Positions 11,514 through 33,050 of a stretch of DNA of 57,535 bases are shown here, piece by piece (position 1 is the stretch's first letter; every line of letters starts with the position of its first letter). The stretch is taken from contig JANXVI010000187.1 of the NCBI GenBank assembly GCA_025351745.1, positions 1-57,535 on the forward strand, given 5' to 3'. Below the pieces are notes generated by a model. That model saw only the letters and a program-made list of their open reading frames with translations. It had not been told where the DNA came from and ran no database searches. Position numbers and translations under genes: made by a program. The DNA is from Rhodoferax sp. (GTDB lineage Bacteria; Pseudomonadota; Gammaproteobacteria; Burkholderiales; Burkholderiaceae_C).

Positions 11514-11564
11514 ATGACGTCATTTAACCGACGGCTAGCTGACCGTGACATTACAGTTTTGTCA
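11514..11564. promoter_or_regulatory. Candidate regulator-binding repeats in the divergent czc-type promoter region
   Basis: The 165-base space between the outer-membrane factor gene and the response-regulator gene holds a perfect 10-bp palindrome ATGACGTCAT (11514-11523). It also holds an inverted repeat TGACA-N9-TGTCA (11546-11564). OmpR-type heavy-metal regulators usually bind inverted or direct repeats here, so either could be the operator for the divergent operons. I cannot assign clear -10/-35 boxes. Confidence 0.4.
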
Positions 11565-11639
11565 GCTTGGTGTTAGCACCACTACGCAGGGCACAATGTT
11601 GATGCATTCCGTAGTCACAACGCGCGCCAACCCAGACCC

Positions 11640-15473: not shown

Positions 15474-16790
15474 TCACAACCAACCTCTTGTAAATCCAGC
15501 CCGCCGCAATCCCGCTGCGATGTACAGGCAGCTGCGCATTAGCCGCCAAAGCAGGCCGGAGCGGTAGTTCTCGCACATCAACACAACCGGTCCGAGATTG
15601 ATGCCGAAGTGATATGGCGATGTCCATCCGGGATGGACGTCACCTTCCTCGTCGCTCGCAAATGTCAGGTTAAAGCTGCATCGAAAACAATATTCTCCAG
15701 TGACTTGCGGATAGACGTCCCGAAAATGCTGCAGCGACGGCAGCACGATCTCAGGTGCGAACGGCAGCGAAGCGGCCACGGCCCAGGGTGCTACGGTTCC
15801 GTCGTCGGGGCCATATGGTGCCCCGCGGCCCACATAGTCGAAGAACGAACGCTCGATGCCCTTGATGCGGCGCGTCGTCTGGCCGGGCCCATCGCTAGCC
15901 GTCAGGCCCCAGAAGTTTTCTCCGTAGCCCGCAAAGCCTAGCGGGTTGCGGATGGCGTACTCACGCTGCACGTAGGTCGCACGGCGACTGTTCTCGCAGT
16001 AGTCGATGCCCTTCTCAAGCGCGAACGCATCCTGGATGCCACGCATGTCCAGCCAGATGTGCGAATACTGGTGGATGAAAAGCGGTCCGCCATATAGCAA
16101 CTCGTAGCCGTAGATCGTTTTCCATTCGTAGGTCGAGGTCCAAGCCGCGTAGCTCTCGGTCGGTAGCGGGTACGTCGGCGAACCCAGCCCGAGTACATAC
16201 AGCAAAGTGGCTTCGTCGTAGCCGCTCCAGCGGTAGGGCAGAAAGCCGGTCTCTGGCGTCCACCCGTGCGTTACCGTCGCGGCACCGTTGCACGCCCATG
16301 CCCAATTGACCCGTCGGTACAGCGCGTCTGCCAGCGTACGCAAAGCCTGCTCATCTTCATCCTCATGGTCAAAGTACGCCGCAGCGGCCAGCATGCCAGC
16401 GATCAGGAATGTGCTGTCGATGGTGGACAGCTCGCACAACCCTGCCCGGCGGCCGGTATTCATGTCGAGAAAGTGGTAATAGAAGCCTTTGTATCCGGTC
16501 TCGTCGGGCGCCGTTCCCTGCGGGCTGTCCCAGAAGAACCGCAGTAGCTTTAGCGTGCGATCCACCGCGTCTGCGCGCGTCATCCAGCCGCGTTCGACAC
16601 CCACCGGATAGGCGGCCAGTGCAAAGCCGACGGCCGCGATGCTGGCCGGCGAGCCTGGTTGCGATTTGTCGGCGACGAGACCGTTTATGGAGTTAGTCTC
16701 GTGTAGGAAATATTCGAAGGAGTGACGTTGCAATGCGTCGAGCCGTTCTTCACCGAAGTTCGACGACACTGCGTTTTGCTCTCCAGGCAT
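15474..16790 (-). CDS. Stand-alone PF10091 glycoside hydrolase (GH144-like, beta-1,2-glucanase type)
   Basis: The 438-residue protein matches the glucoamylase-like family PF10091/COG5368 over its length: SRPGSPASIAAVGF near the N-terminus, GYKGFYYHFLDMNTGRRA, ELSTIDS, the GWTPETGFLPYRWSGYDEA block and the LFIHQYSH block. Characterised relatives of this fold include GH144 endo-beta-1,2-glucanases, and the same domain occurs inside cyclic beta-1,2-glucan synthases. There is no signal peptide, so it probably acts in the cytoplasm or on imported glucan. Its ATG overlaps the stop of the upstream DUF2090 gene by one base (TAATG), so the two are coupled. Specificity for beta-1,2-glucan is inferred from family and from the GH94 gene nearby. 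Confidence 0.8.
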   Translation of the reverse strand: MPGEQNAVSSNFGEERLDALQRHSFEYFLHETNSINGLVADKSQPGSPASIAAVGFALAAYPVGVERGWMTRADAVDRTLKLLRFFWDSPQGTAPDETGYKGFYYHFLDMNTGRRAGLCELSTIDSTFLIAGMLAAAAYFDHEDEDEQALRTLADALYRRVNWAWACNGAATVTHGWTPETGFLPYRWSGYDEATLLYVLGLGSPTYPLPTESYAAWTSTYEWKTIYGYELLYGGPLFIHQYSHIWLDMRGIQDAFALEKGIDYCENSRRATYVQREYAIRNPLGFAGYGENFWGLTASDGPGQTTRRIKGIERSFFDYVGRGAPYGPDDGTVAPWAVAASLPFAPEIVLPSLQHFRDVYPQVTGEYCFRCSFNLTFASDEEGDVHPGWTSPYHFGINLGPVVLMCENYRSGLLWRLMRSCLYIAAGLRRAGFTRGWL

Positions 16791-17707
16791 TAGGTCGCAG
16801 CCTTGGCTTGCTCAAAAACATCCACCCACTGCCGGTAGCGCCGGGAAATTTCGGCCACGGCAGCCTCACGGGTGATCTTCTTATCGCGCAAGGCGACCAG
16901 CGGCTCCCAGAAGGTCGTGCGCCCCACCGCAAAACCAATGAAGCCAGGTACGCCCGCTGCGGTAGCCAGCCAGGCACGAACATGCTGCTCGTTCTCACCG
17001 CGCCCAAGCACGATGCAGCCCACGTTCGCGCGCCCTCCGCGCCTCGCCATCGCCACGATGCGCTCGCAGTCGCCCAGGGTGTCCAGACCCTCAACCTTCC
17101 AGACATCGGCCTCGACCCCCGCATCCTGCAACTCGCTGATGGCGCGCAGCATCAGTACCGGGCGGACCTCGCCGTCGAACGTTTTGATGTCCCCGCCGAG
17201 TACTTCAAGTTGCATAGGCGTAGCGGGCACCAGCAGCTCGAACATGAATCTTGATGGCCCAGAACTGAGGTATTCGGACAGTCTGCGAAGACGCGACGCC
17301 TGACGACGGTTCACCCCCGCATCGCCTTCGGGGTTGTAGCGCACCAGCACCTTGCAAAAGGTCGGCGCGAATTCCTGGATGTGCCGCGCGAATTCGTCAC
17401 CGAACTCGAAGTCGAACTCGTCCTGCCCGCTCTTCTCGGCAGGGACGCAAGTAATGATTTCGCAGTGCCTTGCATCACGCAGGATCTCCGCGCCAAAGTG
17501 CGCATCAACCAGGATGCCTGCCTCTTCCTTGCCAATACCGCCCGCCACTGCGGCCGCGAAACCGTCATAAATGACGCGCTTGGCGGCGGTGATTTGCGCG
17601 GTCTGCGTAGGATTGAGCGCACCGCTCCAGCCAAACATGCCGCTCACGAACGATGCGCGGTGGTCAAAAGGCAGGATGTACAACGGTTGGGTATAGCCCA
17701 TGGGCAT
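16790..17707 (-). CDS. DUF2090 / IolC C-terminal-like aldolase family protein
   Basis: The start at 17707 (MPMGYTQPLYILPFDHR) has AGAGGTG 8 bases upstream and gives 305 residues. A longer frame exists but lacks support. The protein fits DUF2090, the TIM-barrel domain also found fused to IolC sugar kinases and linked to 2-deoxy-5-keto-gluconate-6-phosphate aldolase (class I, Schiff-base type). Visible blocks are YILPFDHRASF, GILVDAHFG, FCKVLVRYNPEGD, FELLVPATP, WKVEGLD and GFAVGRTTFW. Its role here may be cleavage of a phosphorylated keto-sugar or a fructose-bisphosphate-aldolase-like reaction. It begins a two-gene operon with the PF10091 hydrolase and is divergent from gnd. Confidence 0.75.
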   Translation of the reverse strand: MPMGYTQPLYILPFDHRASFVSGMFGWSGALNPTQTAQITAAKRVIYDGFAAAVAGGIGKEEAGILVDAHFGAEILRDARHCEIITCVPAEKSGQDEFDFEFGDEFARHIQEFAPTFCKVLVRYNPEGDAGVNRRQASRLRRLSEYLSSGPSRFMFELLVPATPMQLEVLGGDIKTFDGEVRPVLMLRAISELQDAGVEADVWKVEGLDTLGDCERIVAMARRGGRANVGCIVLGRGENEQHVRAWLATAAGVPGFIGFAVGRTTFWEPLVALRDKKITREAAVAEISRRYRQWVDVFEQAKAAT

Positions 17708-17891
17708 AGTGTGCGCACCTCTTCTGTGGCGGTTTGATTGGATGTTGCTGCATTGCGAATTCGGAATCCAAACCGTATATCGGCAAGTTACGGTGTCATG
17801 ACTGCTACGTCTGTTCGGTGGCTCGCCCTCGGCAATGGGTGGCACCGTACAGACGGACGAGGGCTGGGCCGCGAAAGTGAGAATAACGACA
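17708..17891. promoter_or_regulatory. Divergent intergenic region of the sugar block
   Basis: This 184-base space separates the DUF2090/PF10091 operon (minus) from the gnd/HAD/tal operon (plus) and must hold both promoters. No repeat strong enough to name as an operator is visible. Confidence 0.35.
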
Positions 17892-18929
17892 ATGGAGAAT
17901 CAAATGCAGCTCGGGATGATCGGTTTGGGTCGAATGGGCGCGAGCATGGTTCGGCGCTTGATGAAAAAGGGCCATGGGTGTGTCGTGCATGACCGGCAGC
18001 CTGGGGTGGTGGCCAGCCTCCAAAGTGAAGGCGCTGAGGGCGCAGCTTCCGTTGCCGAACTGGTCTCGAAGATGACCCGACCGCGGGCCATATGGCTGAT
18101 GGTGCCAGCAGGCGCCGTGGACCAGGCACTCGCTGATTTGGTCGTGCATCTGGAGGCGGGCGACATTGTGATCGACGGCGGAAATTCGTATTATCGCGAC
18201 GATATTCGGCGCGCAAAAGACCTTGCCGCAGCGGGCCTTCACCATGTCGATGTCGGCACCAGTGGCGGCATTGCCGGACAGGACCGTGGTTACTGCCTAA
18301 TGATCGGCGGCGAAGCCGAAGTCGTAAAGCGACTGGACCCTGTGTTCATGGCGCTGGCGCCGGGTGTAGGTACCGCATCGCGTACGCCCGGACGCAGCGG
18401 CGACCACGCAAGTGCCGAACAAGGATTCTTGCATTGCGGGCCGCACGGCGCTGGGCACTTCGTCAAGATGGTTCATAACGGTATCGAATATGGCTTGATG
18501 GCGGCCTATGCCGAGGGGCTCAACATCCTGCGCAACGCCAATGTTGGTAAGGGCACACAGGCCGCCGATGCCGAGACCACACCGCTGCGCGACCCCGAGT
18601 TCTACCAATATGAAATGAACTTGGCTGATATCACCGAAGTTTGGCGCCGCGGCAGCGTCATTGGGTCGTGGTTGCTTGATTTGACCGCAGGTGCACTGTT
18701 ACATGACCCCCAGTTGGATGCCTATGGCGGTCGTGTCTCTGATTCGGGTGAAGGCCGCTGGACGCTGCAGGCTGCCATCGACGAAGCGGTTCCCACCCCT
18801 GTGCTCAGTGCCGCCGTTTACCAACGTTTCGCGTCGCGCGGTGAAGCCAACTTTGCCAACCAGGTGCTGTCGGCCATGCGCCACGAATTTGGCGGCCATG
18901 CCGAGAAGGCTGTAAAGGGCTCAACATGA
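17892..18929 (+). CDS. gnd: 6-phosphogluconate dehydrogenase, decarboxylating (short YqeC-type)
   Basis: The start at 17892 ([16 protein letters not shown]) gives 345 residues; the ATG at 17904 is an alternative. The N-terminal Rossmann motif GLGRMGASM, the substrate loop [11 protein letters not shown] and the catalytic-Lys block [14 protein letters not shown] are intact. At about 345 residues it belongs to the shorter class rather than the 470-residue enterobacterial form. It converts 6-phosphogluconate to ribulose-5-phosphate, CO2 and NAD(P)H. It leads a coupled operon with the HAD gene (4-base overlap) and transaldolase. No glucose-6-phosphate dehydrogenase or lactonase gene is in the window, so its substrate must come from genes elsewhere. 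Confidence 0.9.
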
Positions 18930-19654
18930 TCCAAAACACAACTGCGGATGTAGTGTTCCTGTTGGACGTTGACAACACTCTGCTGGATAACGATAGGATC
19001 ATCCTCGATCTGCGTCGCCACCTTGAGACCACGTTCGGCGTTGCCAGTTCGGACTGCTACTGGGCCATCTTTGAAGAACTGCGCGAAGAACTGGGCTACG
19101 CCGATTACCTGGGTGCACTGCAGCGGTACCGATCTAACGCCGAACACGGCGTGACCGCCGATGAGCGGCTGCTGCTGATGGCGAGTTTTTTAATCGACTA
19201 TCCGTTTGCCGAGCGACTGTATCCGCGTGCCCTTGAGGTCATTGCACACCTCGGTCAGTTTGGCCCGACGGTGATCCTCTCCGACGGTGACGTCGTATTC
19301 CAGCCGCGCAAGGTTCAGCGGTCGGGGTTGTGGGATGCGGTCGGTGGCCGAGTACTGATCTATGTTCACAAGGAGCAAATGCTCAATGAGGTTCAGCGCC
19401 AACATCCGGCGCGACACTACGTCATGGTCGACGACAAGCTTCGGCTGCTGTCGGCTGTAAAGGCGGTTCTGGGGGATCGCCTGACGACGGTGTTCCCGCG
19501 CCAGGGCCATTACGCCCTCGACCCGGTCAACGTCAGCCGACAGCCAGCGCCCGATGTCACGGTCGAGCACATCAGTGAACTCGCGGACCTCGATCTCTCT
19601 CAGTTATTGAAGCAGCCTATCGATCAGTCGCGCGCCGCCAAGGAGACACGATGA
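18926..19654 (+). CDS. HAD-superfamily hydrolase
   Basis: The 242-residue protein shows HAD motif I ([12 protein letters not shown], near residue 12), motif II (VILSDGD) and an acidic motif IV (YVMVDDK). The cap lies between motifs I and II. It is a cytosolic Mg-dependent phosphatase or related enzyme with unknown substrate. Position between gnd and transaldolase, with 4-base overlaps on both sides, suggests a sugar phosphate or a phosphorylated by-product of the pathway. Confidence 0.82.
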
Positions 19655-20742
19655 ACGCCAATACCAAAAAACTGCACGATCTGGGACAAAGCCTTTGGGT
19701 GGACGCCATCAGTCGCGACATGCTGGTCGATGGGCAACTTGCGCGTTACATCGCCGACTGGTCAGTAACTGGGCTGACCTCGAACCCGACGATTTATGAA
19801 CACGCAATAGGCCACGGCAACGCCTACGACGAAGCAATTGCGCGACTGACGCGCAGCGGCGAGTCTGCTGAGGAAATATTCTTTTCCCTCGCGCTCGATG
19901 ATCTAAAGGCGGCTGCAGATTTGTTTCGGCCAGTCTTTGACGTTTCTCAGGCTATCGACGGATGGGTTTCGCTTGAAGTGTCCCCGATGCTAGCCGATAA
20001 CGTGGAGACGACGATCGATGCAGCGGCATGGTTGCATGAGGCTGCGGATCGGCCAAATCTTTTTATCAAGATTCCGGGTACACCGGCCGGCATCCAAGCC
20101 ATTGAGGAATCGGTCTTCGCTGGCGTGCATGTCAACGTGACCTTGTTGTTTTCACGCGAACAGTATCTCGCGGCAGCCGAAGCCTACTTTAAAGGAATCG
20201 AACGCCGCCTCGCCGCCGGTCTTGACCTAAATGTGTCCTCGGTCGCGTCACTTTTTGTTAGCCGCTGGGACGTGGCAGTGCGGGACGACGTTGCACCTGC
20301 CTTTTACAACCGACTGGGCATCGCGATTGCCATGCGCACCTACAAGGCCTATCGCGATCTGCTGGCCTCACCGCGGTGGCAGAGGCTTGCACTAGCTGGT
20401 GCCCGGCCGCAGCGGTTGCTGTGGGCCAGCACCGGCTCCAAAGACCCGGCCGCACCCGACACGCTGTATGTCAATTCGTTAGCGGCACCTGACACTATCA
20501 ACACGATTCCCGAGAACACGCTGAAGGCCTTTGCCGACCACGGAAAGGTTGGCGCTATTTTGCCGGTTGACGGGGGCTACGCCGAGGCGGTGCTGGAAGA
20601 GTTCAGGCGCGAAGGCGTCGATGACGAAGCTCTAGCCGCTCGCTTGCAGCGCGAAGGCATCGATTCCTTTGCCGCATCGTGGCAGGTGTTGCTGTCGCGC
20701 ATTCACGAGAAATGCGCCACGCTGGTCGTTGCCGACAATTGA
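19651..20742 (+). CDS. tal: Transaldolase, first copy
   Basis: The 363-residue enzyme has the transaldolase signature near the N-terminus (DWSVTGLTSNPTIYEHAI) and the Schiff-base Lys block NLFIKIPGTPAG. It moves dihydroxyacetone units between sedoheptulose-7-phosphate and glyceraldehyde-3-phosphate. Its length and the extended C-terminus fit the larger actinobacterial/proteobacterial class. It closes the plus-strand gnd operon. A close paralogue lies at 31882-33030 in the opposite operon. Confidence 0.93.
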   Translation: MNANTKKLHDLGQSLWVDAISRDMLVDGQLARYIADWSVTGLTSNPTIYEHAIGHGNAYDEAIARLTRSGESAEEIFFSLALDDLKAAADLFRPVFDVSQAIDGWVSLEVSPMLADNVETTIDAAAWLHEAADRPNLFIKIPGTPAGIQAIEESVFAGVHVNVTLLFSREQYLAAAEAYFKGIERRLAAGLDLNVSSVASLFVSRWDVAVRDDVAPAFYNRLGIAIAMRTYKAYRDLLASPRWQRLALAGARPQRLLWASTGSKDPAAPDTLYVNSLAAPDTINTIPENTLKAFADHGKVGAILPVDGGYAEAVLEEFRREGVDDEALAARLQREGIDSFAASWQVLLSRIHEKCATLVVADN

Positions 20743-20775
20743 CGACGATTTTGCTATCACATATATAGCGTCATA

Positions 20776-20794
20776 AGCCCATTCTATGAGGGCT
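20776..20794. terminator. Weak stem-loop between convergent tal and tkt
   Basis: AGCCC (20776-20780) and GGGCT (20790-20794) can pair around a 9-base loop between the two convergent operons. There is no T run, so termination by this element is uncertain. Confidence 0.22.
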
Positions 20795-20819
20795 AGCGGC
20801 CGAAATTACAATGATGCGG

Positions 20820-22886
20820 CTACTCAACGCGTCGCATGCCGACCAGTAGCGTGCGTGCGCGTGATACGACGTTGTCGACGGTGAAGCCGTATTCACGCTG
20901 CAGGATGTCGGCGGGGGCGGACGCACCAAAACGTTCAACACCGAGCACGTCACCGCGGTCACCGACGTAGCGATGCCAGCCCTGCGTCACGCCCAGTTCC
21001 ACCGACAGTCTTGCTGGCACGGTTGGCGGCAATACCCCGTCGCGATAGCTCTGCGGCTGTGCGTCAAACAGATCCCAACTCGGCATCGACACGCAGCGCA
21101 CACTGATGCCTTCGCCTTGGAGTCGCTCGGCGGCGGCCAGGATCAGGGCGACCTCCGATCCACTGGCGATGAGGATTAGCGCGGGCGGCTGGCCCTCCGT
21201 ATCATTGAGCACATAGGCACCACGGCGCAGCCCTTCAGCGCTGGCATGACGGCTGCGGTCCAGCGTGGGCACCTCTTGCCGGGTCAGTGCCAGCAATACC
21301 GGGCGCTGGCGGCTCTCCACGGCCAACTTCCAAGCCACCGCAGCTTCATTGGCGTCAGCCGGGCGGATCACGGTCAGCCCCGGAATCGCGCGCAAACTGG
21401 CAAGTTGCTCCACCGGTTGGTGCGTGGGGCCATCCTCGCCGACGGCCAGGCTATCGTGGGTGAACACGTAAACAACATGCAGTTTCATCAGCGCCGCCAA
21501 GCGGATCGCTGGTCGCATGTAATCGCTGAAGATCAGGAAGGTGGCGCCAAACGGGATGAACCCGCCGTGCGCAGCCAGGCCGTTGACGATGGCGCCCATC
21601 GCGTGTTCGCGCACGCCGAAGTGCAGATTGCGGCCGGCGGTACTCCAGCCGCCGCCGTTCGAACCCTGGGTGTCGTCGGTGTAGGTTGAAGGTGGATTGA
21701 AATCGCCCAGGCTTTTCAACGCGGTTTTAGTCGACGTGTCCAGGTCTGCCGAACCACCGGTCAAGGCGGGCAGGCGCTGGGCCATCGCGTTCATCACCTT
21801 ACCCGACGCGGCCCGCGTGGCAATGCCCCTGGCATCGGCAGGGAATGTCGGAATGTCGACGTCCCAGCCGGTGGGCAGTTCACCGCGCAAGCTGCATTGC
21901 AGTTCTGTAGCTAGATCAGGGAAGTCCAGCGTATACGCACGCATGCGTGCGTCCCACGCGGCCTCGTCGCGTGCCCCCCGCGAGAGCGCCTGCCGCATGT
22001 GCGCGAGAGCCGTGTCGGGAATCAGGAAGGGCGGCTCGTTGGGCCAGCCGAGGTGCTGCTTCGTAAGCCGAACCTCATCCAGACCGAGCGGCGAACCATG
22101 GGCTTCAAAACTGTCGTGCTTGTTCGGCGAGCCATAGCCGATGTGCGTGCGCACCAGAATTAGCGATGGCCTTGAAGTTTCTGACCGCGCCGCTTGCAGC
22201 GCTAAGGCTATCGCGTCGACATCGTTGCCATCCGCAACGGCCACGGTGTGCCAGCCACAAGCTTCAAATCGTGCGGCCCGATCTTCCGTGAATGCCATGT
22301 CGGTCCCAGAGGAGAGCGTCACGCGGTTGTCGTCGTACAGGCAGACCAGCTTTCCGAGTCTCAGGTGCCCAGCCAGCGAAGTGGCTTCGGCCGCCACACC
22401 TTCCATCAGGTCACCATCGCCAACGATCACATAAGTGTGATGGTCGATGACCGTGTGCCCCGGCCTGTTGTAGCGGGCTGCGAGTTGCGCTTCACCGATC
22501 GCCATGCCAAGGGCATTGGCGAAGCCCTGCCCGAGTGGTCCGGTGGTGACTTCTACGCCTGGGGTGTGCCCGCGTTCCGGGTGGCCAGGCGCCTTACTGC
22601 CCCATTGGCGAAAGGCCTTGATGTCGTCGAGCGAAAGGTCGTAGCCGCTGAGATGCAGAAGGCTGTAGAGCAGCGCCGATCCGTGACCTACGGAGAGCAC
22701 GAATCGGTCGCGGTCGGCCCAATCCGGGTTGGCAGGATTGCATTTGAGAAACTTCGTCCATAACGCATAGGCCATGGGTGCGGCACCCAAGGGCATACCG
22801 GGGTGCCCGCTGTTGGCCCTTTGCACGGCATCCACCGAGAGGAAACGCAGGGTGTCGACGCAAAGTTGATCAAGTGTGTCTGTCAT
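20820..22886 (-). CDS. tkt: Transketolase
   Basis: The start at 22886 ([21 protein letters not shown]) gives 688 residues, and its ATG overlaps the ackA stop by 4 bases. Thiamine-diphosphate features are clear: [16 protein letters not shown], the [13 protein letters not shown] motif with YDDNRVT, and the C-terminal pyrimidine-domain block with VREHAMGAI. It exchanges two-carbon ketol units between pentose and hexose phosphates. It is the last gene of a long coupled operon with ackA, xfp and pgm. Confidence 0.95.
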
Positions 22887-23971
22887 AGGGCCTCCGGTAT
22901 GGTCAGGGGTTGTTGCGTGAGCTGCCAAGTGCGCCACGCGATATGTTCTTCTTCTTGCGCCGGCATCACACGAATGGCTTCTGCGCGCATGCCCAGTCCG
23001 TCCAGCCCTTTGCAAATAGATGCACGCGTTGACGCATCCTTCTCGCCGATACCCCCCGTGAAGACCAGAAGGTCCACGCCACCCAGCACGGTTGCCATCG
23101 CGGCAATTTGCTTTCGTACAGAAGCACAGAACATCGCGATGGCCAGCCGCGCGTCAGCGCCCGAGGGGGTGGTCGAAGCTGCGGCGATATGCAACTCGCG
23201 CATGTCGCCGCTGAAGCCGGAAATACCCAGCATGCCCGAGCGCTGATCAATCAGCGCTTCGAGCTGAGCCGCGTCATAACCGTGCTCTCGAACCACGTAG
23301 GCTAGAACGCCGGGGTCGATGTCGCCACAGCGTGTACTCATAATCACGCCGCCCGTCGGCGTTAGCCCCATGCTTGTGTCAACCGATGCCCCTTGGGCGA
23401 CCGCGGTGACACTCGCGCCGTGGCCCAGATGGGCAATCACCATGCGGGACGGCAAATCACCACCCAGTTGGCGCACGATCGACTCGCCCGACAGGCCGTG
23501 AAAACCGTAGCGCTTTATGCCCAGCGCGCGAAGCTCGCGCGGGATAGGCAGTGTGCTGGCCAATTCCGGCATGGCGGCATGGAAGCCAGTGTCGAGGCAC
23601 GCCGCCTGCGCGATGCCCGGGAAAAGCGTCTGCGCCGCGCGCACCAGCGCTAGCGCTGGCGGCACGTGTAAAGGCGCGAACGCGGTCGCGGCTTCCAGTT
23701 GATGCATCACCGCAGCATCAATCAACGTGTGGCGGCGGCACTGCGGCCCACCATGGACGATGCGGTGGCCGACCGCAATGGGCGCAGACAGACCCTTCGC
23801 CCGCAGCCGCTGCGCGATTCGGGCCATCGCCGCCTGAGGCTCGCCCACCGTTTCTTCTGTACCGCTGAGCAGCACGCGGCTACCACTCGCGTCAACCATG
23901 AAGAAACCAAACTTGAGCGACGAAGATCCGACGTTCAACGCCAGCACAGGTTGGCCCGTGTCTGCGCTCAT
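22883..23971 (-). CDS. ackA: Acetate kinase
   Basis: The start at 23971 ([20 protein letters not shown]) gives 362 residues and a 4-base overlap with xfp upstream. Acetate kinase motifs are present: [53 protein letters not shown] and TGGIGEKD. It is somewhat shorter than the usual 400 residues. It converts acetyl-phosphate and ADP to acetate and ATP, directly using the product of the adjacent phosphoketolase. Confidence 0.95.
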
Positions 23972-26340
23972 GCAGGCCACCGCCAGTCACGCACTTCTGG
24001 CAAGTCCTCACCGTGCTCGCTGATGTAGGCCTTGTGCCGCGCGATGCTGGCATCGTAACGACGGATGGCGTCGTCAACGAGATGCGCCAGGCGCGGGACG
24101 CGGCGTATCGCGTCGAGCGCCAGTTGATAGCGGTCGATGTTGTTCAGCACCACCATATCAAATGCCGTGGTGGTCGTTCCCTCTTCCTTGTAGCCTCGCA
24201 CATGCAGGTTCGCGTGGTTGTGGCGTCGGTAGGCGAGACGATGAATGAGTCCCGGATAGCCGTGGAAGGCGAACACGATGGGCCGATCCAGCGTGAACAT
24301 GGCGTCGAACGCGTCATCGTCCAGGCCGTGCGGATGCTCGGACTGCGGCTGCAGCGCCATCAGATCGACCACATTCACGACGCGGATGCGGATGCCCGGA
24401 ACATACCCGCGCAGCAGCGCGACGGCGGCCAGTGTTTCGAGGGTCGGCACGTCGCCAGCGCAGGCCATCACCACATCAGGCTCACCTTGCGCATCATCGG
24501 AATCGTTGCTGGCCCAGGCCCAGATGCCCGCGCCAACGGTGCAGTGGCGCGCCGCCGATTCGATGTCGAGCCACTGCAATGCCGGCGCCTTGCCGGCGAT
24601 GATCAGGTTCACATAGTTGCGGCTGCGCAGGCAGTGGTCGGTTATCGACAGCAGGCAGTTTGCATCGGGGGCTAAGTAGATGCGCACCACGTCGGACTTC
24701 TTGTTCGCCACCACGTCGATGAAGCCAGGGTCCTGGTGCGAAAAACCATTGTGGTCCTGCTGCCAGACATGCGATGTAAGCAGGTAGTTGAGCGACGCAA
24801 CGGGCAAGCGCCACGGAATCTGGCTGCACACCTTCAGCCACTTGGCATGCTGGTTGAACATCGAATCAATGATGTGGACGAACGCCTCGTAGCACGAGAA
24901 CAAGCCGTGGCGTCCGGTGAGCAGATAGCCTTCAAGCCAGCCCTCGCACAGATGCTCGCTCAGCACTTCCATCACCCGGCCGTCGGCTGACAGATTCATA
25001 TCGACCGCGTCGATATCGGCCATCCACGCCTTGCCGCTAACCTCCACCACTGCACCGAGACGATTGGACGCGGTCTCGTCCGGGCCGAAGAGGCGGAAGT
25101 TGGCACTTCCGGTGTTCCTGCGCATCACCTCCGCAAGGAAGCCACCGAGCACGCGCGTGGACTCGCCCAGCGTGTCGCCAGGCGTGGAAACCGGCACCGC
25201 AAATTCGCGGAAATTTGGCATGAGTAGCGGTGCTAGCAATGCGCCGCCATTGGCATGCGGATTAGCGCCCATGCGCCGCTTTCCGGTGGGTGCAAGCTCC
25301 GCAAATTCCTCGCGAAAGCGACCATTGGCGTCGAAAAGTTCCTGCGGCGCATAGCTGCGCATCCAGGCTTCGAGTTGGCGAATGTGCTCTGCGTTGGTGA
25401 ATTGCGTGATTGGCACCTGGTGTGCCCGCCACGTGCCTTCCACCGGCAGGCCATCGACCTCCTTGGGGCCTGTCCAACCTTTGGGCGTCTGTAGCACGAT
25501 CATCGGCCAGCGGGGAAGCGGCGGCGGTATGGGTGCACCAGGCGCGCGAGCCGCAGCCTGAATAGCTTGGATTTGCCCAAGCACCGCATCCAGTGTTTGC
25601 GCTAGTTGCTGGTGCACCGTCATCGGGTGGTCGCCGACCACAAAGTGCGGCTCGTGGCCGTAGCCACGCAGTAAGGACGTCAGATCTTCCCGCCCGATGC
25701 GCGCCAGCACGGTAGGGTTGGCGATCTTGAATCCATTGAGGTGCAGGATCGGCAGCACCGCGCCATCCCGCGCCGGGTTGAGAAACTTGTTTGAATGCCA
25801 GCTCGTCGCCAGCGCGCCGGTCTCTGCTTCGCCGTCACCGATGACACAGGCCACGATCAGGCCGGGGTTGTCGAATGCAGCGCCGTAGGCATGTGCCAGC
25901 GAGTAACCCAACTCACCACCCTCGTGGATCGAGCCCGGCGTTTCCGGCGCCACATGGCTCGGGATTCCGCCGGGCCATGAGAATTGACGAAACAACTTTC
26001 GCATGCCATCGCGGTCGCGCGAGATGTCGGGATAGGTTTCAGTGTAAGTGCCTTCCAGGTATGTGCTCGCCACCAGCCCGGGTCCGCCGTGACCGGGGCC
26101 GATCACGTTGATCATGTCCAGATCGTGCTCCTTGATCAGGCGGTTCAGGTGCACGTACAGCAAGTTCAGGCCAGGTGTGGTACCCCAATGCCCGAGCAAG
26201 CGCGGCTTGACGTGGGCAAGGGTCAGCGGCTCTTCAAGCAGCGGGTTCGCGTGCAGGTAGATTTGCCCTACCGAGAGATAGTTGGCAGCCCGCCACCAGG
26301 CATGCATCTTGCGAAGGAGATCGGGGGTCAGGGTTGTCAT
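23968..26340 (-). CDS. xfp: Xylulose-5-phosphate/fructose-6-phosphate phosphoketolase
   Basis: The start at 26340 ([20 protein letters not shown]) gives 790 residues, the normal length, and overlaps the pgm stop by 4 bases. Family blocks include [30 protein letters not shown], the thiamine-diphosphate motif GDGEAETG and SHQDPGFID. It splits xylulose-5-phosphate (and usually fructose-6-phosphate) with phosphate to give acetyl-phosphate plus glyceraldehyde-3-phosphate (or erythrose-4-phosphate). This is the committed step of the bifid-type shunt encoded here. Confidence 0.96.
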
Positions 26341-28001
26341 GTTGATTCCTTGGGGTCGATTGCGGTGTCCACGATGCGTTGTGCCTCTGCGAGCAGAAGG
26401 CGCAGGTGCGCGTTGCCTTGGAAGCTCTCTGCGTAGATCTTGTAGATGTCTTCGGTGCCTGAGGGCCGCGCGGCGAACCATCCGCTTTTTGCGCTAACTT
26501 TAATACCACCAATCGGCGCTTGGTTGCCGGGCGCTTTGTCGATCACGCTGGTGATGGGCTCGCCCGCCAGTTCAGTCTGCGAGATCTGGTTGGGCGTCAG
26601 TTTTGCGAGTGCTTGCTTTTGCGTCGTATTTGCCGGGGCATCAATACGATCCCCAAAAAACTCTCCGAACTCAGTGCAGAGCTCGCTATAACGGACACCT
26701 GGGTCGCGACCGGTTCTGGCTGTAATTTCTGCCGACAGCAGAGCCGCCGCGATGCCGTCCTTGTCTGTAGTCCACACGCTACCGTCGCGGCGCAAGAAAG
26801 ATGCCCCGGCGCTCTCTTCGCCGCCAAAGCCCAGGCTGCCGTCGAACAGACTTGGTGCGAACCATTTGAAGCCGACAGGCGCCTCGAACAAACAGCGACC
26901 GAGGCGGGCAGCGACCCGGTCGATCATCGCGCTGCTGACAACCGTCTTGCCGACCGCCGCCGACGCGCCCCACTGGGGTCGGTGCTGGAACAAATAGTCG
27001 ATGGCGACACTGAGGTAGTGGTTTGACGGTAGCAGGCCGGCGCTGCTTGTCACGATTCCGTGGCGGTCATGATCGGTATCGCACGCGAATGCGACGTCAT
27101 AGCGGTCTTTCAACGCGATCAGCCGCTGCATTGCATAGCGCGACGACGGGTCCAGGCGAATCTTGCCGTCCCAATCTGCCGTCATGAATGCAAACTGCGG
27201 GTCAACTTCTGCACTGACCACTGTCAGATCGATCTGGTAGCGCTCGGAAATCTGCGCCCAGTAATGCACCCCGGCGCCACCGAGCGGATCAACGCCCAAG
27301 CGCAATCCTGCGCTACGGATCACATCGAAGTCGATCACGTTGCCAAGGTCGGCGACATACGTTCCAAGATAGTCGTGTTCATGCGTGGTGGCGGCTTTGC
27401 GCGCCTGGGCCAACTCCATTCGCCTAACCCCCTTGAGGCCGTTTTCGAGCAAAGTGTTGGCGCGCTCTTGCACCCAGCCGGTGATGTCAGCATCGGCTGG
27501 GCCTCCGTGCGATGGGTTGTATTTGAAGCCGCCACTGTCTGGTGGGTTGTGCGACGGTGTGATAACGATGCCGTCGGCCAATCCGCTGGTCCGGCCGCGG
27601 TTGTGGACCAAGATCGCATGCGAGACCGCTGGCGTGGGCGTGAATTCGCCGTTGCACGCAATCATGGTCTCCACGCCATTGGCGGCTAGTACTTCCAGCG
27701 CGTTATCAAATGCCGGCTTTGAGAGTGCGTGCGTATCCACACCGATGAACAAGGGTCCATCGATGCCTTTACCCTTGCGGTACTCGCAGAGGGCCTGTGT
27801 GATCGCCAGCACATGCCAGGCGTTGAAACTGCGCTCGAACGGCGTTCCCCGATGGCCCGATGTGCCGAACACAACCCGCTGCGCCAGCACGCCGGGGTCA
27901 GGCTGCACATCGGCGTATGCAGCCAACAGCTTGCCAATGTCGACAAGTAATTCCTTCGGTAGCGCCTGTCCGGCGAATGGGCTGATGCCGTGTATCATCA
28001 T
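26337..28001 (-). CDS. pgm: Phosphoglucomutase (alpha-D-glucose phosphate specific)
   Basis: The 554-residue enzyme has the catalytic phospho-Ser loop ([13 protein letters not shown]), the metal loop ([11 protein letters not shown]), the sugar-binding loop ([11 protein letters not shown]) and the phosphate-binding loop ([10 protein letters not shown]) of the hexomutase superfamily, in the bacterial Pgm arrangement. It interconverts glucose-1-phosphate and glucose-6-phosphate. It overlaps both neighbours by 4 bases (27998-28001 with the GH94 gene, 26337-26340 with xfp). It is therefore placed to feed phosphorolysis product into the shunt. Confidence 0.95.
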
Positions 28002-31000
28002 TGGTCCTGTGGTTGGCCGATGGTGATGCGCAGCAGGTGAGTCTTTCCATCATCCACGAGTGCGACACCATCGGTGGCACAGAGTTCCGCGCCGTCGAGT
28101 TCGACCCGCGTCACACCCCGGCCGAGGCGAGAAGCGTTGTCGACCGTGATCTCGTACCGGGTGATGGCGTGCATGCGCCCCTGCCGCCGGTAGCTGAGCT
28201 GGAAACCGGGCCAGATCTTTGGTATGCACGGGTCGATTAGCAGCCGATCTCCGCGCAACTGAAACCCGAGCATGGCTTCGAGGCCCGCGCGGTACAGCCA
28301 TCCCGCGGTTCCCGTGTACCACGTCCACCCTCCGCGGCCCACGTGCGGCGCGACGGAGTAGACGTCCGCGTTGGCAACGTAGGGCTCCACCTTGTAGCGC
28401 GCGGCGGCTTCGGGACTGTCGCTGTGATGGATCGGATTGATGAGATCGAACATCGCGCCGGCACGATCGCCGTCACCGAGCCGTGCCCAGGCGAAGATCG
28501 ACCAGGTCGCCCCGTGGGTATATTGCCCGCCGTTTTCTCGCACGCCCGGCGGGTAGCCTTTGATGTAACCTGGGTAGACTGGACTGAAATCGAATGGTGG
28601 GGTGAATAGTAGCGCGACCTGGTGCTCATGATCGACGAGCATGCGGTCGACCGATTCCATGGCTTGCGATGCATGCTCGCGGCTCGTTGCGCCGGCAATT
28701 ACGCTCCACGACTGGGCGATGCTGTCGATCCGGCATTCCTCGCTCTCATGCGAGCCCAGTGGCGTGCCGTCGTCGTAGTAGCCGCGCCGGTACCACTCCC
28801 CATCCCACGCTCTCTCCAAAGCACCGCGCAGCTCGGCAGCGTAGGCGCGCCAGCGCTTGACTCGCTCCGTATCTCCACGCCGCTCTGCATAAGGCAAGAA
28901 CGCCGTGATAGTGGCCACCATAAACCAGCCGAGCCAGCCGCTTTCCCCGTGGCCTTGTTCTCCGACGCTGTTCATCCCGTCGTTCCAGTCGCCGGAACCC
29001 ATCAGCGGAAGGCCGTGCGCGCCGCGCGTGAGTCCCGATTCAAGCGCACGGACGCAGTGTCCGTAGAGACTGGCGGTCTGGGGCGACGCGCCCGGCAGCG
29101 CGAATGAATCAGTAGCGTCGGCTGGAATGGGCTCGCCCATGAGAAACGGGATAATCTCGTCCATCACCGCTGCGTCGCCCGTGACATCGACGTAGTGCGC
29201 GGCGACGTAGACGAGCCAAATGCGGTCATCGCTGATCCTGGTTCGAATGCCCTGCCCACCGGGCGGCAACCACCAGTGTTGAACGTCACCCTCATTGAAC
29301 TGGCGGCCGGCCGCGCGCAAAACGTGTTCGCGGGCGAGATCAGGTCGACTCACGCACAACGCCATCACGTCCTGCAACTGGTCGCGGAATCCGTACGCGC
29401 CGCTGGCTTGGTAGTAGCCACTACGCGCCCACACGCGGCAACCCAGAACCTGGTAGGGGAGCCAGTCGTTGAGCATGATGTCCATAGCCCGGTTCGGCGT
29501 CCGCACTTGGACGGTGTCGAGCAGGCCATTCCAGTGTGCTGCGACGTCGGCGAGAACCTGCTCGAAGCAGTCAGCGCGGTACTTCAAGATCAGTGCCTGC
29601 GCGTTTTTGTAGGAATCCGCGTCACCCAGGAGAAAGACGACGTCAATCTGCGTGTTGGGGGGCATCTCGATACGTGTCTGCAGCGCGCCGCACGGATCCA
29701 GTCCCGCGCCGACCCGACCCGACAACGCTGACCCATCCTGCAGCGCAGCGGGCCGACTCACATTCCCCAAAGATCCGAGAAACGCCTTGCGATCCCCACT
29801 CATCGACTGCTGCAAGCCGCACAGGTCAATGAACGCCACCCGGTCGGCGAACTCGCTGCGCCACCGGTTGCGCGCCAACAGTGCGCCGGTCTGCTCATCC
29901 CTCGCCGTGACCACGAACGGCGCCGAAGCACTGCCGTTTGCCCCAAGCGCCCATTCGACATATGCCGTGACCGACAAGCGCCTGACCGATGCGCCACGGT
30001 TGTGTAGGCGCAGCCGCGACAGCTTCACGGAATCGGTCGGCGCTACGCACTGGATCAGCTCCAGCCCAATGCCGTGCGCATCGCTCGAGAAACGGCTGTA
30101 GCCTTTGCCGTGCGTGGCATGGTAGGCGGCGCCGGCGACCCGAATCGGCAACGCGGTTGCGCTGTACAAGGAGCCGCTGTCTTCGTCACGCAAGTAAAGA
30201 ATTTCGTGCGGGCTGTCGCTGACGGGATCGTTCGGCCATGGCGTGAGCGGGTTCTGTTGGCTGTTGACCGACCATGTGTACCCGCCGCCCTCCGCGGACA
30301 CCAGAAAGCCGAAGACGGAGTTAGAAATCACATTGATCCACGGTGCTGGCGTGCAGCGCCCGTCTTCGAGATCGACGCGGTATGCCCGACCAGCGCAGCT
30401 GAAGCCACCTTGGCCATTGGGAAACTCCAGAGCGTCTGCGGAAGCGGTCACGGTTTGTGTTGGCGTGCTGGCGACATGGGGCCCGACCGCCGCGGCATCC
30501 TTCGGGGCGCCCCCGAGGACATCGCCAGAAGGATCCCTGGGGCCCAGCAGCACGCGTGCCACCGTGAGCAGGCCATCCAAAACATCGTCGCTGATCGCGG
30601 GGGCACGGAACAAGAACACCTCGGCCTTGACTGCTGCGCTGTCGGCTTTGAGGCGAACCTGTTGCGCGCTGACCAGCGGAACGATCGCGTCGTGGAGTGT
30701 ATCGGCCGCAACCGAGCTTGCCGTGTTGAGAATGACCACGTCAACGGCCAGGCGCTTGCTGCGCCAATATGTCTGGGCCAGCAGAACCGTTTCCAAGAGC
30801 GACAGTTCCGCGAGGCTGTTCGCGCGTAGTAGCATGATCGGCCGATCGCCGCTGATACCGGCGGCCCACAACGTTGGCGACCCCCCGTGTCCACGCACCA
30901 AAAAGTCGGCAGCGGCGCGTTGGGACGGATCACTGAACAGCAGCGCACTAAGCCAACTGTCAAAGCAGTTGCTTTGCGACTGGTCGACGCCCAGACTTGA

Positions 31001-31894
31001 CCGTTCAGCAGAAGCGTGGCGGGTTGCGTTCACGAAGATCTGTTCTGCAGCGTTCGGGTCGTCGAGTTGTGCGGTTAGTGCCAACGCCCCTTCGCGCGTA
31101 TCGGCCAGCCGCGTCCACAGCAGCAGCGAAACGGTTCCGCCAGGCGCAAGGGTGATGCGCTGGCGAAGGCTGAAGATTGGATCGAGCACCGTACCGGTAA
31201 AGTTCGACAAGGGCGCGCCCGGCTGCATGGCCTGAGCATCGGGCAACGCGCGACAACGGCCCAGGAAGCGCGCACGGTCAGTCTCGTGCTCAAGCGCACG
31301 CTCGCCTGGCCGGCCTTCGATCTGCAGCGCGTGGGCCGCCCAGATCCCGGTTTCTTCCCTCGCACGCTTGCGCCGGGTGGCCAGCAGCACGCCGCACCGC
31401 GCGTCCCACGCGGTCTGCACGAACATCTTGGAAAAGGCCGGGTGCGTGTTGTCGGCTGCGATCGGGCCGACGACCAGCTCGGCATACGACGTTAGCGATA
31501 ACCTGCGTGAAAAGGCGCCATGGTTGGTCAGAGTGAGCCGACGCAACTCGATATCGGCGTCGGGAGCGACGGCGACTTGCAAAGTGCTGGTCAGCGTACC
31601 TTGGCGGCTGACGTACTCGACGCGGCCTTCGTCGAAGCTCACGGTCATGTCCTGCGTGGTGGCGCCCCAAGGCTGCCGCGTGGCTGCCCACGCCGTACCG
31701 GTCTGTTCGTCACGCAGCAGCAAATAGCTACCCCAGGCGTCGCGCGTCACATCCTCGCGCCAACGGGTGACGGCCAGGTCTCTCCAGCGACTGAATCCGG
31801 CCCCGCTGTCGCTCAGCATCACGCTGTAGGTGCCGTTCGAAAGCAGGCAAAGTTGGTGCGCGGATACGAGCGGGGGCGCTGTCAGATCTGGCAT
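27998..31894 (-). CDS. GH94 glycoside phosphorylase, NdvB C-terminal-like
   Basis: The 1298-residue protein resembles the C-terminal half of cyclic beta-1,2-glucan synthase (NdvB/ChvB) but has no glycosyltransferase-84 or membrane region. Residues 1-500 carry the first beta-sandwich set (GAGFSRWRDLAVTRWRED, TSYAELVVGP, HPAFSKMF, GISGDRPIMLLR). From about 510 comes the GH94 core: GGYTWSVNSQQNPLTPWPND, the general-acid Asp in YGFRDQLQD, GIRTRISDD, GSGDWNDGMN and QYTHGATW. GH94 enzymes cleave beta-glucosides with phosphate to release glucose-1-phosphate. By likeness to NdvB and 1,2-beta-oligoglucan phosphorylases, beta-1,2-glucan is the likely substrate. Its start overlaps the upstream transaldolase by 13 bases. 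Confidence 0.9.
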   Translation of the reverse strand: MPDLTAPPLVSAHQLCLLSNGTYSVMLSDSGAGFSRWRDLAVTRWREDVTRDAWGSYLLLRDEQTGTAWAATRQPWGATTQDMTVSFDEGRVEYVSRQGTLTSTLQVAVAPDADIELRRLTLTNHGAFSRRLSLTSYAELVVGPIAADNTHPAFSKMFVQTAWDARCGVLLATRRKRAREETGIWAAHALQIEGRPGERALEHETDRARFLGRCRALPDAQAMQPGAPLSNFTGTVLDPIFSLRQRITLAPGGTVSLLLWTRLADTREGALALTAQLDDPNAAEQIFVNATRHASAERSSLGVDQSQSNCFDSWLSALLFSDPSQRAAADFLVRGHGGSPTLWAAGISGDRPIMLLRANSLAELSLLETVLLAQTYWRSKRLAVDVVILNTASSVAADTLHDAIVPLVSAQQVRLKADSAAVKAEVFLFRAPAISDDVLDGLLTVARVLLGPRDPSGDVLGGAPKDAAAVGPHVASTPTQTVTASADALEFPNGQGGFSCAGRAYRVDLEDGRCTPAPWINVISNSVFGFLVSAEGGGYTWSVNSQQNPLTPWPNDPVSDSPHEILYLRDEDSGSLYSATALPIRVAGAAYHATHGKGYSRFSSDAHGIGLELIQCVAPTDSVKLSRLRLHNRGASVRRLSVTAYVEWALGANGSASAPFVVTARDEQTGALLARNRWRSEFADRVAFIDLCGLQQSMSGDRKAFLGSLGNVSRPAALQDGSALSGRVGAGLDPCGALQTRIEMPPNTQIDVVFLLGDADSYKNAQALILKYRADCFEQVLADVAAHWNGLLDTVQVRTPNRAMDIMLNDWLPYQVLGCRVWARSGYYQASGAYGFRDQLQDVMALCVSRPDLAREHVLRAAGRQFNEGDVQHWWLPPGGQGIRTRISDDRIWLVYVAAHYVDVTGDAAVMDEIIPFLMGEPIPADATDSFALPGASPQTASLYGHCVRALESGLTRGAHGLPLMGSGDWNDGMNSVGEQGHGESGWLGWFMVATITAFLPYAERRGDTERVKRWRAYAAELRGALERAWDGEWYRRGYYDDGTPLGSHESEECRIDSIAQSWSVIAGATSREHASQAMESVDRMLVDHEHQVALLFTPPFDFSPVYPGYIKGYPPGVRENGGQYTHGATWSIFAWARLGDGDRAGAMFDLINPIHHSDSPEAAARYKVEPYVANADVYSVAPHVGRGGWTWYTGTAGWLYRAGLEAMLGFQLRGDRLLIDPCIPKIWPGFQLSYRRQGRMHAITRYEITVDNASRLGRGVTRVELDGAELCATDGVALVDDGKTHLLRITIGQPQDQ

Positions 31895-33030
31895 GGAGCG
31901 TTCCCAGCTGGAAGGTCGATTGGGTGCTGCCGGGCAGTCGATGGTGCCCGGTCAGGCGCCAACGCACCCGACTTTTCGGCGATCCGCTGCAGCAGCTGCT
32001 GCCAGGACTTTACGAAAGAGAGGGCGCCGTCTTGCTGGAGTTTTGCGGCCAGCGCCTGGACATCGACGCCCGCACTGGCGATCTGCGACAACACCGCTTC
32101 GGCGTCACCCCCGTCGGCTGGCATCACGCCTTGCAGCCGACCGTGGTCGGCGAATGCATGCAGGGTCTTCTCGGGAATGGTGTCGATCGTGTCGGGGGCG
32201 GCCAGCGCGCTGACGTACAGCGTGTCGGGTGCTGATGGGTCTTTGGTGCCGGTGCTGGCCCACAGAAGGCGCTGAGGCCTGGCACCGGCAGAGGCGAGTT
32301 TCTGCCAGCGCGACGAAGCCAGCAGCTCGCGGTAGGCACGGTAGGTCTGCCGGGCCACCGCAATACCGAGTTTGTGCTGTAGTTCGGTAAGCAGCTGCGG
32401 GTTGCCAGCCACGTCCCAGCGGCTGATGAACAACGAGGCGACCGAGCCCACGCGCAGATCGAGCCCCGCCGCGAGGCGCCTTTCGATGCCTCGCAGATAG
32501 GCTTCGGCAGCGGCTTGGTAATGGGCGCATGAAAACAACAACGTCACATTGATGGGGATACCAAGAAAGATTGCCTCCTCAATCGCTGGCAGCCCTTGCG
32601 GCGTTCCGGGAATCTTCACGAACAGGTTGGCGCGCTGGGCTTGGTCATGGATCCGTCGGGCTGCTGCGATGGAGCCTGCGGTGTCAGCTGCCAGTAGCGG
32701 CGAAATCTCCATCGATACCCAGCCATCAGTTTGGTCGGTAGCGTCAAATACTGGCCTAAATAAGTCGGCTGCACGGCGCAGGTCTTCCAACGCCAGCTCG
32801 GAGAACAGCGCTTCACCGGCCAGCCCGGCCTGCGTCTTGGCGTGGATGGCCGCGTCGTACGCATCGCCGCCACCGATTGCTGCATCGAAAATGCTGGGGT
32901 TAGAGGTCAGCCCGGTGACCGAATAGTCGACGATATAGCGCGCCAACGTGCCGTCGTCGAGCAGTGTGCGGGTGATGTTGTCCAGCCATAGGCTTTGGCC
33001 GAGATCGTGCAATTGGCGGGTCGATTTCAT
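31882..33030 (-). CDS. tal: Transaldolase, second copy
   Basis: The start at 33030 (MKSTRQLHDLGQSLWLDNI) gives 382 residues. The N-terminal signature (YSVTGLTSNPSIFDAAIGGG) and the Schiff-base Lys block (FVKIPGTPQG) are intact. It is clearly related to the copy at 19651-20742 along its whole length, including the internal block ERRLAAGLDL and RPQRLLWASTG. Its placement in the GH94-pgm-xfp operon means both divergent sugar operons carry their own transaldolase. Confidence 0.93.
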   Translation of the reverse strand: MKSTRQLHDLGQSLWLDNITRTLLDDGTLARYIVDYSVTGLTSNPSIFDAAIGGGDAYDAAIHAKTQAGLAGEALFSELALEDLRRAADLFRPVFDATDQTDGWVSMEISPLLAADTAGSIAAARRIHDQAQRANLFVKIPGTPQGLPAIEEAIFLGIPINVTLLFSCAHYQAAAEAYLRGIERRLAAGLDLRVGSVASLFISRWDVAGNPQLLTELQHKLGIAVARQTYRAYRELLASSRWQKLASAGARPQRLLWASTGTKDPSAPDTLYVSALAAPDTIDTIPEKTLHAFADHGRLQGVMPADGGDAEAVLSQIASAGVDVQALAAKLQQDGALSFVKSWQQLLQRIAEKSGALAPDRAPSTARQHPIDLPAGNAPCQI

Positions 33031-33050
33031 AGGGGCTCCAATTCGGTCGT

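Follow-up and report, generated by a model that had tools for sequence, protein, structure and literature searches.

We propose, with moderate confidence, that a block of carbon-metabolism genes on a 57,535-nucleotide contig of Rhodoferax sp. (JANXVI010000187.1, assembly GCA_025351745.1) is a stress-energy module within a mobile copper and stress island, and that it turns intracellular beta-1,2-glucan into acetyl-phosphate and ATP. We refer to this whole stretch of DNA as the window. The cell's own cyclic beta-1,2-glucan synthase (CGS) would make the glucan at the cytoplasmic face, and a cytoplasmic endo-beta-1,2-glucanase of family GH144 would break it down to oligosaccharides. A stand-alone GH94 phosphorylase that originated from the half of CGS that controls chain length would then convert glucose units and phosphate to glucose-1-phosphate, with no ATP spent. 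Phosphoglucomutase together with Pgi and Zwf (the latter two encoded elsewhere in the genome) would feed fructose-6-phosphate and 6-phosphogluconate; Gnd, transketolase, and two transaldolases would interconvert the sugar phosphates; and phosphoketolase would form acetyl-phosphate, from which acetate kinase would make ATP. Our evidence consists of the enzyme families, their intact active sites, the gene order, the fact that parts of the set recur, a CGS-like gene in the same genome, and relatives on plasmids. The sequence comparisons argue strongly for beta-1,2-glucan as the predicted substrate, and we infer the direction, the flux, the intracellular location, and the use as fuel under stress.

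All of the families named in the original prediction (PF10091/GH144, GH94, phosphoglucomutase, 6-phosphogluconate dehydrogenase, two transaldolases, transketolase, phosphoketolase, and acetate kinase) are found at the expected places, as judged by Pfam and NCBIfam matches. (Our Pfam scan of the window covered 49 of the 155 listed open reading frames, or ORFs, of at least 100 amino acids.) A minus-strand run from about 33.1 to 20.8 kb encodes a transaldolase (transaldolase 2, 31882..33093; NF002881, 459 bits); the GH94 phosphorylase (27998..31894, 1298 amino acids; supersandwich and catalytic domains matched by PF06165 and PF17167); phosphoglucomutase (pgm, 26337..28001; TIGR01132, 851 bits); phosphoketolase (xfp, 23968..26481; NF003619, 1421 bits), whose structural relatives include 8io8 (1100 bits) and the xylulose-5-phosphate/fructose-6-phosphate phosphoketolase 3ahc (878 bits); a short form of acetate kinase (ackA, 22883..23980, 365 amino acids; PF00871, E 1e-82; TIGR00016 at 273 bits, under the cut-off of 293); and transketolase (tkt, 20820..23015; TIGR00232, 890 bits). 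From tkt up to a serA-like gene that lies upstream of transaldolase 2, neighbouring ORFs, taken as longest frames, share 4 to 145 bases, as would be expected of genes transcribed as one unit.

On the plus strand are gnd (17835..18929), which encodes an NAD-dependent decarboxylating type of 6-phosphogluconate dehydrogenase (TIGR00872 at 410.8 bits, cut-off 297); a HAD hydrolase, perhaps a sugar-phosphate phosphatase (18926..19654; PF00702 at 26.7 bits, cut-off 26.4); and the second transaldolase (transaldolase 1, 19651..20742; NF002881, 444 bits). Beyond these, on the minus strand, are a DUF2090 protein, which is similar to the C-terminal part of IolC and is a predicted aldolase (16790..17845; PF09863, E 5e-28), and the putative GH144 glucanase (15474..16790, 438 amino acids). 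The DUF2090 and HAD genes had not been included in the original prediction, and both recur in related sets; in relatives, the HAD gene is again placed between tal and zwf or gnd. The sole relative of the HAD protein in PDB is 2p11, which is annotated as "hypothetical protein". The DUF2090 protein has no PDB relatives at E 1e-3, and its match to NF047869 is weak (40 bits, far under the cut-off).

The GH144 protein matches PF10091 at 296.7 bits (cut-off 27; E 1.3e-88), a family that also covers the cyclase domain of CGS. Its closest relative in PDB is 8xul (XCC2207; 416 bits), followed by structures of the same family including 5gzh, an endo-beta-1,2-glucanase that we take to be CpSGL. We also take XCC2207 to be the same protein as XcSGL, as a name search for XCC2207 led to PMC12102758. 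To compare active sites, we mapped residues of XcSGL and CpSGL onto the window protein through alignments to its PDB relatives. The portions of the source that we consulted describe XcSGL, a GH144 protein of Xanthomonas campestris, as a beta-1,2-glucanase with a conserved acid (E239) along with F286 and Y367, and give the position of E142 in CpSGL as the most plausible base (PMC12102758). E193, F238, and Y319 of the window protein correspond to E239, F286, and Y367 of XcSGL, and D125 is an acidic residue at the proposed general base (E142 of CpSGL). All four residues are identical in 58 of 58 aligned GH144 rows. The catalytic residues are intact in the alignment, and we predict that the protein hydrolyzes beta-1,2-glucan.

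The window protein shares its family, domain length, general acid, and other conserved residues with XcSGL and CpSGL, but it lacks an export-like N-terminus. By hydropathy, there is no hydrophobic stretch at its N-terminus. The same is true of most of its closer relatives: among the 25 GH144 proteins with at least 54% identity (counting the window protein), no stretch exceeds about 1.2 in 23, one protein has such a stretch (L040), and one was not measurable (L065). In contrast, 28 of the 33 GH144 proteins below 54% identity exceed about 1.3, and many of these look lipoprotein- or Tat-like by eye. (The hydropathy measure, taken at possible N-termini, is crude, and the cuts at 54% identity and about 1.3 were chosen after inspecting the data.) The form of GH144 that accompanies the carbon genes is probably cytoplasmic. 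All of the soluble domains of CGS are on the cytoplasmic side, according to the part of the structural report that we used (PMC10901819). A stored or a periplasmic glucan had been suggested as the fuel. Because this form of GH144 lacks an export-like N-terminus and the soluble domains of CGS are cytoplasmic, we favour an intracellular glucan, and the case for a periplasmic one is weakened.

Separately, this genome has a second, 56% identical GH144 gene on contig C491 (L039:771-6020). Its neighbours are genes for a GMC oxidoreductase and an SDR protein, and an IS66 transposase is close by. A similar run of SDR, GMC, glycosyl hydrolase, and GH144 genes is found on plasmids of Mesorhizobium B2-1-8 and Acidiphilium; in Acidiphilium, the hydrolase is a GH39.

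Residues 6-1243 of the GH94 protein align to the C-terminal half of CGS from Agrobacterium (PDB 8rf0, residues 1551-2800) at 1048 bits, and cellobiose phosphorylases score up to 275 bits, far under the CGS match. We took the numbering of the 8rf0 chain as native. In CGS, the phosphorylase part starts at residue 1536, a Rossmann-like insert spans 1847-2012, and D2393 and D2528 are predicted active-site residues, again according to the portions consulted (PMC10901819). The match begins at CGS residue 1551, near the phosphorylase boundary, and spans the region of the insert, with D838 and D972 at the sites of D2393 and D2528. However, the window protein has no glycosyltransferase, cyclase, or membrane part and is a separate gene in a metabolic run. 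A full CGS can be rejected, as the 1298-amino-acid ORF has GH94 domains only.

We expect the GH94 protein to catalyze the same reaction as LpSOGP, for which nine sugar or phosphate positions are named in the part of the source that we drew on (PMC5309861). The corresponding positions, located by motif spacing, are R837, D838, W970, D972, E1120, Y1125, H1127, T1194, and G1195. Seven of these nine subsite -1 or phosphate positions are the same in LpSOGP, but the window protein has T and G in place of S1005 and S1006. The seven matching positions are invariant in all 91 aligned GH94 rows; the other two are T/S and G, with one gap each, and T/S and G are also found at these sites in CGS rows. Membership in the SOGP group was rejected by sequence: none of the 20 PDB sequences with similarity to the window protein at E 1e-3 is named as an oligoglucan phosphorylase or SOGP.

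The window GH94 clusters with six other stand-alone proteins (one from genome G338, four from Rhodanobacter, and one from a Gammaproteobacterium) in a tree of 91 rows; the group has 99% support (Shimodaira-Hasegawa-like approximate likelihood ratio test, SH-aLRT) and lies among CGS domains. The second tree has 53 rows, for which fewer CGS rows were chosen and plasmid loci were added. In it, five rhizobial stand-alone GH94 proteins form another clade (100%), and the GH94 from genome G428 has a third place. By these two trees, which were quick, without bootstrap, and rooted only for drawing, stand-alone GH94 has three separate placements among CGS domains. Three other frames were not counted as stand-alone. 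The short frames in G389 and G142 (L036 and L037) look like CGS genes that were split by a frame change, and the 1446-amino-acid frame in L101 has a CGS N-terminal match upstream.

The genome also encodes a CGS-like protein of 2817 amino acids (on contig C49), which has PF10091 and GH94 domains; Pfam reported no glycosyltransferase domain in it. In its phosphorylase part, it is 35-36% identical to the window GH94 and falls on a distant branch. With a GH144 that is nearest to XCC2207, a GH94 that is nearest to the phosphorylase half of CGS, and this CGS-like gene, the earlier assignment to beta-1,2-glucan holds up. The glycogen-synthase family PF08323 had no match in this (incomplete) assembly, and the same search was positive in 12 of 14 control genomes.

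The original prediction described a near-complete path, with a full set in one block. All of the named genes are indeed together, with xfp, ackA, tkt, and tal of a phosphoketolase pathway in the block, but the window alone is not the full pathway. The entry steps pgi and zwf lie outside the block, and none of zwf, pgi, rpe, or rpi are among the 49 ORFs that we scanned. Single copies of zwf and pgi, along with a third transaldolase, are on contig C426, and rpe is on contig C15. In loci L126, L200, and L091 from other genomes, pgi and zwf are inside the carbon set. Our statements about zwf, pgi, rpe, and CGS presuppose that C426, C15, and C49 are from the same organism as the window (contig C467). 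The assembly (5.1 Mb in 498 contigs, 92% complete) is estimated to be 6.9% contaminated, so other contigs might be from another organism. As for phosphogluconolactonase, two beta-propeller ORFs in the window (595-1851 and 52973-54019) exceed the cut-off for PF10282, a family that includes one type of 6-phosphogluconolactonase, but YncE is a better match for both.

To see if the set recurs, we searched 398 genomes of the phylum and 200 genomes of the family, in even draws from larger groups. GH94 was found in 52 of the 398 phylum genomes (E 1e-200 or better), mostly as CGS-sized frames, and in 55 of the 200 family genomes (E 1e-150 or better). Phosphoketolase (E 1e-150) was found in 51 and 15 genomes, respectively, and GH144 (E 1e-60) in 32 and 16. 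Sixteen genomes had both phosphoketolase and GH144, and in 7 of the 16 the two were within 20 kb, versus 0.18 expected. Without the window, this was 6 of 15 genomes versus 0.165 expected. (The expectation assumes uniform placement and ignores shared ancestry.)

We also took the sequence around each of the 51 GH144 places that the searches found in other genomes, and compared it to eleven carbon-gene queries. If the GH144 was at least 55% identical to ours, then one or more of the queries matched within 10 kb (or within the part of that distance that the sequence covered) at 10 of 18 places; below 55% identity, this was 1 of 33. (The 55% cut was chosen after inspecting the data.) None of 20 control stretches, which were hand-picked from other positions on contigs of GH144-bearing genomes, matched any of the eleven queries; they contained one CGS match, one copA match, and two serA matches. 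Given the recurrence and the empty controls, we reject the idea that the cluster is unique to this genome by chance, as far as parts of the set are concerned.

The gene order varies among the related sets: pgm-tal-HAD-zwf-gnd-GH144-xfp-ackA in L124; xfp-pgm-DUF2090-tal-HAD-gnd-GH144 in L125; GH144-pgm-tkt-DUF2090-pgi-tal-HAD-zwf-gnd-GH94 in L126 (genome G428); and gnd-GH94-zwf-HAD-tal-pgi-pgm in L091. In G338, the order is gnd-zwf-HAD-tal-pgi-DUF2090-pgm-tkt, and GH144, GH94, and a CGS-sized gene follow about 7 kb on. The sets in L124, L125, and plasmid pPNAP02 (described below) have phosphoketolase and no GH94. Among 80 listed loci of GH94 relatives in named genomes, 14 have at least one carbon gene, and several of these have pgm directly after CGS. 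We saw pgm right after CGS in L043, L046, L051, L052, L065, L082, and L236, which are labelled as Verrucomicrobiota, Gemmatimonadota, or Alphaproteobacteria.

Relatives of the window GH144 (E 1e-60) are present on 53 of 72,556 plasmid records, and the closest is on pPNAP02 from Polaromonas naphthalenivorans CJ2. The gene order on pPNAP02 is nearly the same as in the window: copA, a 566-amino-acid protein, tal, pgm, xfp, ackA, tkt, HAD, gnd, DUF2090, and GH144. The eleven core proteins are 79-93% identical to those in the window (86% for copA, 91% for transaldolase 2, 83% for DUF2090, and 79% for the 566-amino-acid protein). In the window, copA encodes a copper-type P-type ATPase (41060..43777, minus strand; TIGR01511, 586 bits). 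The window also contains an RND efflux set (minus strand) with a CusR/CusS-like two-component system (plus strand) at 5361..13729 (PF00873, HlyD, OEP, PF00072, and PF21085), as well as genes for a multicopper oxidase, TPM, LemA, a YncE/cytochrome D1-like protein, and polyphosphate kinase 2 at 48701..54939 (minus strand), with relatives on pPNAP02. For the efflux, LemA, TPM, cytochrome D1-like, and polyphosphate kinase 2 genes, the counterparts on the plasmid are less similar than the core. The two islands share the carbon set, GH144, the copper genes, and polyphosphate kinase 2, but pPNAP02 lacks GH94 and serA, and it has one annotated transaldolase instead of two. We found no integrase, transposase, or relaxase among the 49 ORFs scanned, and pPNAP02 is typed as non-mobilizable. 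The suggestion of a mobile island is nevertheless supported, because the same island is plasmid-borne in a named relative.

Two further genes of the window's run lie upstream of transaldolase 2, in the same direction. One encodes a SerA-like phosphoglycerate dehydrogenase with an ACT domain (33051..34304, minus strand; NF008759, 632 bits). At this place, pPNAP02 has a gene for N-acetylglutaminylglutamine amidotransferase (L224, 6582-8414), an enzyme of osmolyte synthesis. The other encodes the 566-amino-acid protein (34301..36001, minus strand), which is kept in related islands and has no Pfam or NCBIfam matches. By eye it resembles an ATP-grasp enzyme, and a 48% identical relative lies beside pgm, ackA, and xfp in L129.

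We examined 16 of the GH144-bearing plasmid loci (from the 53 records), and 9 of the 16 have phosphoketolase within 10 kb. This fraction is not unbiased, because three of the loci were picked after xfp was seen near GH144. In five plasmid loci (from Sinorhizobium meliloti ml28 and Rm41, Ensifer adhaerens, E. canadensis, and Rhizobium sullae), the order is xfp-GH94-GH144, with a stand-alone GH94 in the middle. None of the 53 GH144-bearing records is a plasmid of S. meliloti 1021 or 2011. On pTK2 of Sphingobium, CGS and pgl are found with gnd, transaldolase/pgi, tkt, and rpiA, and a plasmid of Phenylobacterium zucineum has CGS and pgm with universal stress proteins. A plasmid of Criblamydia sequanensis (L226) has GH144, ackA, glgP (alpha-glucan phosphorylase), phosphoketolase, thymidine phosphorylase, and heavy-metal transporters. 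We also noticed a CGS-sized gene, with matches to GH94 and to the N-terminal part of CGS, in the mobile island pKLC102 of Pseudomonas aeruginosa (L235).

Several observations weigh against a glucan-burning module. Parts of the set co-occur in other genomes and on plasmids, but the complete block was seen only in the window: no relative that we saw has GH94, GH144, phosphoketolase, and pentose-phosphate genes together. This is because the two richest of the sets with GH94 have their phosphoketolase far away on the same contig (at a distance of about 78 kb from gnd in G338, and of about 780 kb from the set in G428) and there is none in the L091 stretch. The 7 genomes with xfp near GH144 come from just two families (four from f51 and three from the window's own), so they are not independent. 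Eight of the 18 places with GH144 of at least 55% identity have no carbon gene nearby. Phosphoketolase is common and has many roles, and there is no transporter or regulator that links the parts. On the Criblamydia plasmid, the partner of phosphoketolase is glgP, and another (alpha-)glucan may therefore be the fuel. Finally, the whole pPNAP02 record has no match to GH94, CGS, or serA at E 1e-5. Because pPNAP02 has the carbon set and GH144 without GH94, the carbon set does not need GH94 in cis. GH94, which the original prediction had counted as part of the set, is present in the window but is an optional part of the island. Overall, the finding is real, with four corrections: the window does not contain the full pathway, GH94 is optional, the complete combination was seen in the window only, and the glucan is more likely to be intracellular than periplasmic.

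Another explanation is that the glucan is remodelled rather than burned: GH144 and GH94 would trim or recycle the products of CGS, for length control or osmotic adjustment, and the sugar-phosphate genes would be co-located for separate stress needs. We consider this unlikely, with a small but real chance of being correct. The GH94 domain already serves length control within CGS, in the parts of two reports that we consulted (PMC10901819, PMC11842490); 66 of the 80 listed GH94-relative loci, which are mostly CGS, have no carbon genes within the stretch; and four Rhodanobacter loci, which also count against a fuel role, have only gnd beside GH94 and GH144. However, the stand-alone GH94 adjoins or is near xfp in the five rhizobial plasmid loci, and in the window, L126, G338, and L091 it has pgm, zwf, or pgi nearby. 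These stand-alone proteins, the rhizobial ones included, have three separate placements in the trees.

It is less probable still that the carbon set is a bypass for copper or oxidative stress, which would provide NAD(P)H and ATP without iron-sulfur enzymes from ordinary glucose-6-phosphate, with GH144 and GH94 as passengers on the island. Copper genes flank the set in both the window and pPNAP02, heavy-metal transporter genes are near GH144 and xfp on the Criblamydia plasmid, copA matches are near GH144 or xfp in L123 and L125, and the lack of GH94 on pPNAP02 would fit as well. But GH144 is retained in the absence of GH94 as well, and no copA match lies within the stretches around the five rhizobial loci with xfp-GH94-GH144.

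It is well established that phosphoketolase and acetate kinase are used catabolically. With this, a CGS-like gene in the genome, and an adjacent GH144 that is expected to be hydrolytic, it is very unlikely that the block runs in the synthetic direction, with sugar phosphates converted to glucose-1-phosphate and GH94 lengthening beta-1,2-oligosaccharides as a store, even if glycoside phosphorylases are reversible, as the portion of the source consulted has it (PMC5309861).

The proposed module, from beta-1,2-glucan to ATP, resembles the bifid shunt or phosphoketolase pathway in that xfp, tkt, tal, ackA, and pgm are together, but it differs in being placed with beta-1,2-glucan enzymes in a copper and stress island. 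Among the matches listed, we found no open-access paper that describes a coupling of phosphoketolase to glucan or to GH94/GH144, and a search that joined phosphoketolase with copper resistance and genomic islands gave only open-access papers that are unrelated by title. Searches for a link to the low-oxygen locus of Burkholderia found no paper, and we do not draw on such a link. In S. meliloti BO21CC, the functions associated with salt tolerance include phosphoketolase (COG3957), a phosphatase (COG0406), and a COG3459 protein that is called NdvB, in the part of that study that we drew on (PMC12855168). On pSymA of S. meliloti ml28, a phosphoketolase gene, a histidine phosphatase gene, and a gene for a stand-alone GH94 are direct neighbours. 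They presumably correspond to the same three COGs, and the locus may be the one in BO21CC.

A broader version of our proposal, which we consider rather unlikely, is that beta-1,2-glucan is an intracellular energy reserve that replaces glycogen in some proteobacteria. A mobile module would burn it in an ATP-sparing way that avoids iron-sulfur enzymes (via phosphorolysis, pentose phosphates, phosphoketolase, and acetate kinase), so that the cell keeps its energy supply under copper, salt, or oxygen stress. On three or more occasions, the length-control half of a CGS would have been detached to give the phosphorylase, and DUF2090 (as an aldolase) and HAD (as a phosphatase) would recycle triose phosphate to fructose-6-phosphate, which would give a natural and nearly complete non-oxidative glycolysis to acetyl-phosphate.

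In the parts of the literature that we consulted, beta-1,2-glucans are treated mainly as osmoregulatory, symbiosis, or virulence factors, and we met no description of how the bacteria that make them get the carbon back. The repeated finding of phosphoketolase or pentose-phosphate genes together with a beta-1,2-glucanase of the cytoplasmic type and a phosphorylase detached from CGS would point to a concrete route for doing so. A short version of the set is on plasmids of tractable rhizobia such as S. meliloti Rm41. If our proposal is correct, then some metal-stress islands would bring their own energy supply.

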